Shown piece by piece: positions 6,221-8,518 of a DNA stretch of 64,000 nt (positions are counted from its first letter, which is position 1; every line of letters starts with the position of its first letter). Origin of the DNA: Aquimarina algicola. GTDB taxonomy: Bacteria; Bacteroidota; Bacteroidia; Flavobacteriales; Flavobacteriaceae. The stretch covers positions 434,001 through 498,000 of the forward strand of contig NZ_VFWZ01000001.1 in assembly GCF_006443095.1 (NCBI RefSeq), written 5' to 3'. The notes below the pieces were generated by a model. The model was not told the origin of the DNA. It ran no database searches and was given only the letters and a program-made list of their open reading frames with translations. A program made the position numbers and the translations under genes.

Positions 6221-6282
6221 TACAGTTGGTTTAAAAAGAACTGTATCAAATAATGTGCCTATAACACTTCATTTGTAAAAAA

Positions 6283-6593
6283 GAAAAAGCAGATCATAAG
6301 CCGGATTCTGTAACTTTATTAATAAAGCCCTTATCATTTATCTAGTCTTGACATTACTATCAAGATCAAACCGCCTACCCTCCAACGTTAGGCGCACAAC
6401 CTTCAAATGCTGGTTTACATGGCGTTGCACCGCATAGAGTTTACCTGATTTCACTACAGCATTACCTGTACATTCTTTCTGTTGCACTTGTCCTCGTCTT
6501 TCGACGGACGGGCGTTACCCGCTATACTGTGCTACGGTGTCCGGACTTTCCTCTCTTTAATAATATAAAGAGCGATAAGGTGATCTGCTCTGC
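6283..6593 (-). ncRNA. rnpB: RNase P RNA (bacterial type A)
   Basis: Read on the minus strand, the segment has the two halves of the universally conserved P4 core: GAGGAAAGTCCGGAC near the 5' end (about 6555-6541) and CAGAATCCGGCTTA near the 3' end (about 6313-6298). The end helix P1 is visible as AGCAGATC at the 5' end pairing with GATCTGCT at the 3' end. The length of about 310 nt fits a Bacteroidota RNase P RNA. The 3' end runs into a T-rich stretch (6281-6288), consistent with termination. The gene is divergent from dnaX. The ends are accurate to a few bases. Confidence 0.95.
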
Positions 6594-6727: not shown

Positions 6728-8518
6728 ATGGAGCATTTTATAGTATCAGCACGTAAATATCGACCACAAACATTCAAAGATGTTGTGGGGCAGCAAGCGA
6801 TTACTAATACGCTCCTTAATGCTATAGAGAATAATCATCTCGCCCAAGCGCTACTATTTACCGGTCCCAGAGGGGTAGGAAAAACTTCTTGTGCAAGAAT
6901 TCTGGCAAAAACGATTAACCAAGATGATCAACAAGATCCTGATGAAGATTTTGCATTTAATATTTTTGAACTTGATGCCGCTTCTAACAATTCTGTAGAT
7001 GATATAAGAAGTTTGATCGACCAAGTACGTATCCCTCCTCAGGTTGGAAAATACAAAGTATATATAATAGACGAGGTTCATATGCTATCGCAGGCGGCTT
7101 TCAACGCTTTTTTGAAAACATTAGAAGAACCTCCAAAACATGCTATATTCATCTTAGCCACTACTGAAAAACATAAAATTATACCTACAATTCTCTCTAG
7201 ATGTCAAATATTTGATTTCAAAAGAATTACCGTTACAGATGCAAAAAATCATTTGATGCAGGTAGCAGAACAGGAAGGAATTATTGCTGATGAAGATGCT
7301 TTGCAAATTATCGCTCAAAAAGCAGACGGTGCTATGCGTGATGCGCTCTCTATTTTTGATCGTGTAGTAAGTTTTAGTGGAAAAAACTTAACTCGCCAAG
7401 CCGTTACAGAAAATCTAAATGTTTTAGATTATGAAACCTATTTCTCTGTTACAGATCTTATTTTAGAGAACAATATTCCTCAATTACTAGTTTCATTCAA
7501 TGATATTTTGGCTCAAGGATTTGATGGGCATCATTTTATTGCAGGATTAGCTTCTCATTTTAGAGATCTTTTGGTTTGTAAAAATCAAGAAACTATTGCT
7601 TTGTTAGAAGTTGGAGAACAAACAAAAGCCAAATACCTCAATCAATCACAAAGGGCTACCCATCAATTTCTTATAAGAGGCATTGAACTTGCAAATGACT
7701 GTGATTTGAAATATAAAACCAGTCGGAATCAAAGATTGCTCGTAGAGCTTTGCTTAATGCAGCTAGCCTCTATCCTTGTTAAGGATGGAGAAAAAAAAAA
7801 TGACCCACATTACATAATACCTCCTTCATATTTCAAAGAAAAAGGAATAACGCCTGTAAAAGTTTCTTTACAACAAAAAGAAAAATCTCAACAAATTCAT
7901 TCAGAGGCATCATCTGATGCAAGTGATAATACTATTGATGTTAAGCAGGAACATAAAAATGAGGAACCTGCAATTAGTACTATTGATCAAAACAGTACGG
8001 TTTCAAATACCTCTTCTTCTTCAATAGATAAGAAATCTGATATTCCTCAAAGACAACGAAAAACCTCTGGTTTGTCATTGAGTAGTATTAGAAAAAAGAA
8101 AGAACATCAAGAAAGCAAAGTAGAGAAAGTTGTTGATCCCAAAAATCTACCTACATCAGCATTTTCTGAATCTGAAATGAAAGCGGCATGGATCGAATAT
8201 GGAAAAATGCAAGATAAAAAAGGGGAACGAATTATTGGTTCTATGTTTGCTATGAATATCCCCAAACTCAAGGGTAAAGATGTTGTGGCTCTAGAGCTTC
8301 CTAATCAATCTATGAAAGTTGATATGGAGGCGGCACAAGCTGGATTACTACAATTTTTATACAAAAAACTAGACAACTATAGCATTACGATTGATATTAC
8401 TGTAAATGAAGAGGCTTCAAAAAAATATGCGTTTACTCCTCAGGATAAATATGAAAAGCTTAGAGAAAAAAATCCTCTTATTGATAAATTACGCTCTTCT
8501 TTTGATTTAGATATCTAA
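6728..8518 (+). CDS. dnaX: DNA polymerase III subunit gamma/tau
   Basis: DnaX is the AAA+ subunit of the clamp loader. I chose ATG 6728 (596 residues) over the in-frame TTG at 6701 because the conserved family start is MEHFIVSARKYRPQTF and the predicted promoter overlaps the TTG. Visible motifs are Walker A GPRGVGKTS (46-54), Walker B IIDEVH (113-118), sensor ILATTEKHK (142-150) and arginine-finger SRC (157-159). The cysteine zinc module that normally follows Walker A is absent; a Gln/Asp-rich loop sits there instead. Domain III ends around residue 350. It is followed at 7791-7800 by ten consecutive A within codons 355-358, with TGA immediately after in the -1 frame and TAA a few codons on in the +1 frame, so slippage would give a gamma-like product of about 358 residues. 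The tau-specific tail from about 360 has a low-complexity linker and a conserved C-terminal domain from about 480. Confidence 0.95.
   Translation: MEHFIVSARKYRPQTFKDVVGQQAITNTLLNAIENNHLAQALLFTGPRGVGKTSCARILAKTINQDDQQDPDEDFAFNIFELDAASNNSVDDIRSLIDQVRIPPQVGKYKVYIIDEVHMLSQAAFNAFLKTLEEPPKHAIFILATTEKHKIIPTILSRCQIFDFKRITVTDAKNHLMQVAEQEGIIADEDALQIIAQKADGAMRDALSIFDRVVSFSGKNLTRQAVTENLNVLDYETYFSVTDLILENNIPQLLVSFNDILAQGFDGHHFIAGLASHFRDLLVCKNQETIALLEVGEQTKAKYLNQSQRATHQFLIRGIELANDCDLKYKTSRNQRLLVELCLMQLASILVKDGEKKNDPHYIIPPSYFKEKGITPVKVSLQQKEKSQQIHSEASSDASDNTIDVKQEHKNEEPAISTIDQNSTVSNTSSSSIDKKSDIPQRQRKTSGLSLSSIRKKKEHQESKVEKVVDPKNLPTSAFSESEMKAAWIEYGKMQDKKGERIIGSMFAMNIPKLKGKDVVALELPNQSMKVDMEAAQAGLLQFLYKKLDNYSITIDITVNEEASKKYAFTPQDKYEKLREKNPLIDKLRSSFDLDI
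7791..7803 (+). promoter_or_regulatory. A10 slippery run with immediate out-of-frame stop in dnaX
   Basis: Ten consecutive A (7791-7800) follow G7790 and are followed at once by TGA (7801-7803). In frame 0 this reads Glu355-Lys-Lys-Asn358-Asp. A -1 ribosomal slip, or insertion of one A by RNA polymerase, gives Lys-Lys-Lys-stop; loss of one A gives stop TAA within five further codons. Programmed frameshifting in E. coli dnaX and transcriptional slippage at an A9 run in Thermus dnaX are established precedents. No strong downstream hairpin was seen, which favours transcriptional slippage. Confidence 0.6.

Follow-up and report, generated by a model that had tools for sequence, protein, structure and literature searches.

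The dnaX gene of the flavobacterium Aquimarina algicola, located at positions 6728–8518 of the forward strand of the DNA stretch analysed here (the window: 64,000 nucleotides of contig NZ_VFWZ01000001.1, positions 434,001–498,000), carries at the end of the part common to the gamma and tau proteins a run of ten adenines (A10, 7791–7800), which is probably a programmed transcriptional slippage site and would be the main means by which both tau and gamma are produced, whatever the frame in which the tau-specific tail is written in the DNA. In the relatives of this bacterium the length of the tract is constrained, both off-frames are shut shortly behind it, the frame of the tail toggles between closely related species, and the tail is under selection.

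The open frame begins with the ATG at 6728 and encodes, without any change of frame, the full-length tau protein of 596 residues, which matches the NCBIfam models PRK14971 (726 bits, cut-off 685) and TIGR02397 (385 bits, cut-off 250). The part common to gamma and tau, corresponding to AAA+ domains I–III (residues 1–348, positions 6728–7771), is composed of the Pfam domains DNA_pol3_delta2 (22–167), DNAX_ATPase_lid (173–218) and DNA_pol3_gamma3 (222–348); the A10 tract, considered a putative slippage site on the basis of its sequence and conservation, begins seven residues after the end of the last of these, domain III, and occupies codons 355–358 (GAA AAA AAA AAT). The -1 frame is closed immediately 3' of the run by TGA (7801–7803, nucleotides 1–3 after it), and the +1 frame, after five codons, by TAA (7815–7817, nucleotides 15–17), which is formed by the first isoleucine codon after the run (ATA, 7814–7816) together with the next base; the predicted shortened products count 358 residues (stop in the -1 frame, C-terminus DGEKKK) and 362 residues (stop in the +1 frame, C-terminus DGEKKMTHIT). 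The tau-specific tail (7802–8518), recognised from its open frame and from the selection acting on it in relatives, starts with the motif YIIPPSYFK (7811–7837). The gene of A. algicola is therefore of the intact form, tail and N-terminal part sharing one frame, unlike the dnaX genes composed of two open reading frames (ORFs), here called split. The preliminary description of this DNA had reported the ten adenines, the two off-frame stops and the ending of slipped products at about residues 358–362, behind domain III, all of which were found exactly as described; it had also held the run to be the longest of A or T inside any gene of the window, and indeed no second A10 or T10 occurs in it.

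The presence of the run is not due to chance. In a background sample of 464 kb of the same genome (20 stretches plus the window), with expectations derived from an order-1 model, A/T runs of length 8 were observed 131 times vs 130 expected, runs of exactly 9 only 12 times vs 49, runs of 10 once vs 18 and runs of 11 or more never vs 11; the genome thus avoids A/T runs from length 9 up, and the dnaX tract is itself the sole run of 10 or more in the sample, where 29 were expected. A similar rarity is found in the loci of named relatives (L033–L112, 80 loci which are not part of the 240-gene set described below, and of which L033 and L043 were left out as likely copies of genus genomes): outside the dnaX site, the A/T runs of 10 in 534 kb of the remaining 78 loci number three (two of A, one of T) and longer ones are absent, and at the dnaX site the run is A10 or more in 64 of the 78 and A9 or more in 68. 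On both strands of the whole 5.89 Mb genome of A. algicola there are 19 places with A10 or longer (20 matches, two overlapping); five of the 18 places other than dnaX lie in a stop-to-stop frame of at least 80 codons on their own strand (in L325 this frame lacks an ATG), and for two more a frame of this size is present on the opposite strand. Four of these other runs (L326, L328, L341 and L342) lie within open frames of 219–367 codons in which an ATG precedes the run; among these, one is presumably a LytS-type sensor kinase-like protein and another, we assume, PxpB-like.

Conservation of the tract was analysed in the genus Aquimarina (64 of 66 genomes, giving 62 readable genes, L135 being unusable and L136 having no readable site), in a family set (10 loci, the 29 best new loci and 40 picked mostly for truncated matches, 27 of 97 matching genomes being unfetched) and in a search of the phylum (110 of 115 matching genomes); counts on related species are not independent and are to be read as counts, not as probabilities. 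All 62 genus genes carry at least A10: exactly A10 in 58, A11 in two, and A12 and A14 in one each. In the Bacteroidota sample of 240 dnaX genes a run of A9 or more is present in 208 (157 A10, 30 A9, 17 A11, four longer), A6–A8 in only 5 and shorter runs in 27. The position of the tract shifts by tens of bases between genes, and the run is found in each of the three codon phases; in a family with the code f15, at a local G+C content of 46–64%, A9–A10 is kept in 21 of the 21 genes examined. Codon choice fails to explain A10, because at the conserved lysine columns of the N-terminal part AAA is used in 81% of cases and not one of 12 columns is all AAA (61 genus genes); the tract is conserved at the nucleotide level, over and above what the codons require. 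Several named Bacteroidales genes (L069, L077, L086, L090 and others) have no long A run in the stretch scanned behind domain III.

With the length of the tract so constant, the frame of what follows it is not. In the genus 40 of the 62 genes are intact and 22 split, with the tail in the -1 frame in 17 and in the +1 frame in five; of all 208 genes with A9 or more, 139 have an in-frame tail, 60 a -1 tail and nine a +1 tail (the 23 split genes among the 77 of the family set are not a rate, this sample having been chosen mostly for truncated matches). Exactly A10 is retained in 18 of the 22 split genus genes, and it is the flanking bases that differ: the run is followed by TGACC or similar in most intact genes, by GACC, GGCC and the like in -1 split genes, and the TAA which shuts the +1 frame in intact genes shuts the zero frame in many split ones. 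Split genes cluster on the genus tree. Based on the sequence preceding the run, this tree requires at least eight changes between intact and split (7–9 in bootstrap; branches with good support force four of them), or 11 when three states are distinguished, with the limits that the outgroup rows do not fall on one side and that L148 lies inside on a long branch; a rough FastTree of the 240 phylum rows, with many weak branches, needs 39 changes, of which at least 15 are forced. In L117 (A14) and L123 (A12) the frame is altered by the run length itself, and an assembly error is possible for both. Since the tail is out of frame in 22 of 62 genus genes, there it is tau itself that needs a frame change; the dual output of tau and gamma suggested by the preliminary description is therefore supported by the sequence, in a form that goes beyond what it had proposed.

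The tail encoded out of frame does not look like a relic. The ratio of nonsynonymous to synonymous substitution rates (dN/dS), calculated for pairs that share species and in several of which dS exceeds 1 (5.3 in one), is 0.05–0.20 for the tail in ten split pairs and 0.08–0.22 in five intact pairs; for the first 100 tail codons it is 0.17–0.55 and 0.21–0.68, respectively, and for the common N-terminal part it is 0.01–0.05 in the 15 pairs. Translation of the 62 genus genes in the tail frame, moreover, gives the YIIPP motif directly behind the run in intact and split genes alike. The tail thus appears to be under purifying selection in split genes too, and hence to be expressed.

Closure of the off-frames is nearly general: both are shut within 30 nucleotides of the run in 62/62 genus, 77/77 family, 15/17 class, 48/52 rest-of-phylum and 64/70 named genes, compared with 40%, 39%, 19%, 20% and 28%, respectively, at matched positions of the same genes. 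The preliminary description had made its prediction depend on conservation of the run and of the off-frame stops in close relatives, and throughout the readable genes of the genus both are conserved. In intact genes the +1 frame is shut in 40/40 cases in the genus (19.9 expected), 54/54 in the family (28.9 expected), 8/10 in the class (3.7 expected) and 31/35 in the rest of the phylum (14.6 expected), and the -1 frame in 40/40 intact genus genes (30.9 expected). In 61 of the 62 genus genes ATA encodes the first isoleucine behind the run, whereas in the N-terminal part it accounts for 491 of 1886 isoleucine codons (26%).

According to the mechanism proposed here, RNA polymerase would slip on the T10 template, generating dnaX messenger RNAs (mRNAs) with 9, 10, 11 or more adenines. 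In A. algicola the A10 mRNA would be translated into the 596-residue tau, the A11 mRNA would end at the TGA after 358 residues and the A9 mRNA at the TAA after 362, both short products being a gamma-like clamp-loader subunit made of domains I–III; in the split relatives tau would come from slipped mRNA and gamma from unslipped mRNA. Every allele would yield all length classes, so the frame of the tail in the DNA could drift. We infer from the comparisons that slippage occurs, that RNA polymerase rather than the ribosome is responsible for it, and that tau and gamma both function in the replisome.

The choice between RNA polymerase and the ribosome is the point on which the alternatives chiefly differ. 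Three observations favour transcriptional slippage: the length floor of 9, a +1 frame that is shut in intact genes, and the occurrence of tails in both shifted frames. The floor coincides with the length at which the genome of A. algicola begins to avoid A/T runs, and a length of 9 has also been reported for many bacteria (PMC1088944); tails in both shifted frames have been taken as a mark of transcriptional slippage (PMC3711429), an argument weakened here because all nine +1 tails have possible start codons. Several observations weigh against the mechanism proposed: 60 of the 69 split genes carry the tail in -1, which is the way ribosomes classically shift; A10 contains A_AAA_AAA heptamers; the run is missing in 32 of the 240 dnaX genes (29 of 81 genes of other classes are without A9 or more); among genus genes 21% of downstream windows have a folding z-score below -2, vs 10% of controls; the +1 closure in intact genes may partly be inherited from split ancestors; and replication slippage could also account for the avoidance of long A runs. 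On the first of these points, an RNA polymerase slippage biased towards insertion would equally give an excess of -1 tails. That -1 ribosomal frameshifting on A_AAA_AAA should by itself, and without strong stimulators, produce gamma in intact and tau in split species is unlikely, despite the -1 excess, the TGA lying directly after the run of A. algicola in that frame, the mild genus excess of stable downstream windows, and the two tRNA-Lys genes found, both with anticodon UUU (not all of the 55 transfer RNA (tRNA) matches were typed); PMC5009743 also mentions, as unpublished, stimulators of the E. coli kind in a Chlorobium dnaX, and the +1 tails might be separate proteins begun at a start codon before the run. 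Such a heptamer needs seven adenines only, yet runs of A6–A8 are rare; the +1 frame, which ribosomal shifting would have no need to shut, is shut in every intact genus gene; and from the nine +1 tails -1 shifting cannot yield tau. In E. coli constructs, furthermore, A_AAA_AAA was far less shift-prone than A_AAA_AAG (PMC5009743), and here the run is followed by T. Consistent downstream structure is likewise lacking: at the dnaX tract of A. algicola no downstream stem-loop was found by single-sequence folding (z -1.19), the z-scores of 208 genes are near those of control windows, and consensus folding in four groups gave no consensus fold, which is weak evidence, since for many control windows folding likewise failed to give one. 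The idea of a stimulatory downstream hairpin is accordingly rejected, in agreement with the preliminary description, which saw none; its preference for a transcriptional over a ribosomal event is favoured by the length floor, the +1 closure and this lack of consistent structure. A GGAG immediately adjoins the A10 run, but Shine-Dalgarno sequences are not recognised by Bacteroidia ribosomes (PMC6847099, PMC9976891). A mixed arrangement, with RNA polymerase slippage as the main process and ribosomal -1 shifting added on the same tract, to which it is equally suited, would account for the 60 -1 vs nine +1 tails; nothing requires the ribosomal part, however, the excess fitting insertion-biased slippage as well, and we consider such a contribution rather improbable, an estimate which overlaps with that for transcriptional slippage.

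Two further explanations concern the split genes themselves. If in these species the tail were a separate protein made by internal initiation, a start codon would be looked for before the run, and the nine +1 tails all have a possible one in the tail frame (ATG within 30 nucleotides in seven, GTG or TTG only in two), which makes a free-standing tau tail conceivable in these nine genes and is a further point against slippage as the common explanation. In L117, L119, L122, L124, L129, L155, L309, L312 and L314 the possible tail-frame start lies within 10 nucleotides before the run. An ATG in the +1 frame is, however, also common in intact genes (27/40 genus, 39/54 family); there it leads into the +1 stop, and it may be a by-product of codons. 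Among the 60 -1 tails, 54 lack any ATG, GTG or TTG in their own frame between the last upstream stop and the run (two of the other six have ATG, four GTG/TTG only). In the 17 that belong to the genus, an ATG is not met until 169–396 nucleotides behind the run, nor a GTG/TTG until at least 96 nucleotides behind it, after the conserved YIIPP motif; expression of the -1 tail would thus in most cases mean fusion to the N-terminal part. A tail-only protein, moreover, would stay unjoined to the clamp loader, and internal initiation as the general explanation of split genes is very improbable. Still less credible is that the A10 is a contingency tract switching dnaX by phase variation at the level of replication, or that the splits are assembly errors. 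Homopolymers do mutate and are misread, and a few genus runs do differ in length; nevertheless the run is exactly A10 in nearly all genus genes, split ones with differing neighbouring bases included, the splits cluster on the tree and are also present in assemblies given as a single contig (G024, G033), and the common N-terminal part has the low dN/dS given above. Assembly error was rejected for most split genes on account of the constant A10, the differing flanks and the clustering, the A12 and A14 genes being the possible exceptions.

Synthesis of gamma and tau from one dnaX gene is known in E. coli, where it depends on -1 ribosomal frameshifting on A_AAA_AAG with a Shine-Dalgarno-like element and a stem-loop. 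The A. algicola gene resembles it in the predicted output of gamma and tau from one gene and in the stop directly after the shift site; it differs in having no consistent stem, ten adenines, a host class in which Shine-Dalgarno pairing is unused, and relatives with tails in both shifted frames. Transcriptional slippage in the dnaX of Thermus thermophilus was reportedly described by Larsen in 2000. It takes place on an A9 run (PMC1088944, PMC5009743), and the arrangement described there is the one found here, with an A run at the end of the common part, tau in frame and near stops in both other frames; gamma in Thermus is made from slipped mRNA, as we propose for A. algicola. The differences are that the run is A9 there and A10 here, that slippage was established there by experiment and is deduced here, and that among the close relatives considered here the tail changes frame. 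By every feature that can be tested in a sequence, the A. algicola gene would therefore be classed as a Thermus-type slippage dnaX, and, considered as a lineage-wide system, it appears to be a variant which holds the length of the tract but not the reading frame.

Split genes of this kind have also been described. Seventeen two-ORF dnaX genes from 12 genera, nine of them with A10, were identified by GeneTack, and transcriptional slippage was proposed for them (PMC3711429); the split relatives of A. algicola are like these, with an A run mostly of 10, the tail in -1 and tau in need of recoding. The species of the nine A10 genes may include Aquimarina relatives, the genes described are -1 split ones, and interconversion with intact genes, +1 tails and a phylum-wide length constraint are not described in the accessible parts of that paper (PMC3711429). 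Slippage in Thermus and split A10 dnaX genes are thus already known; a literature search, with the subscription literature mostly outside it, gave no paper announced as describing, for Bacteroidota, either a constraint on tract length across the phylum or repeated toggling of the tail frame.

It has been noted that comparing sequences can hardly demonstrate that a product truncated by slippage, such as that of the Thermus dnaX, is functional (PMC1088944). Split orthologues of the same genus sidestep that limit, the product of the frame change being there tau, with its long conserved tail; and the many natural reversals of role in close species make the need for gamma, and for a given ratio of it, testable by the comparison of sister species. 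As regards annotation, split dnaX genes in Bacteroidota are probably neither pseudogenes nor sequencing errors. A bolder proposal, which we advance tentatively and regard as somewhat doubtful, is that RNA polymerase slips so often on A10 that all three frames are filled to a similar extent, the tract acting as a frame randomiser and the DNA frame of the tail being nearly neutral. Were this true, the tau:gamma ratio would be set by RNA polymerase and by the length of the tract rather than by the reading frame of the gene, and dnaX, a gene of an essential machine, would have a reading frame no longer fixed by natural selection.

A few other features may be mentioned. Residues 56–90 of the A. algicola DnaX (6893–6997), which we take to correspond to the zinc module of E. 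coli DnaX, contain no cysteine. Directly upstream of dnaX and divergent from it, a class A bacterial RNase P RNA (208 bits) lies on the minus strand at 6282–6591. Elsewhere in the genome, at positions 515–665 of locus L344 (G000 C1), ARAGORN predicts two tandem tRNAs with four-base anticodons (cttt and cttg) and no assigned amino acid, which score 59–62 bits with the tRNA model of Rfam.
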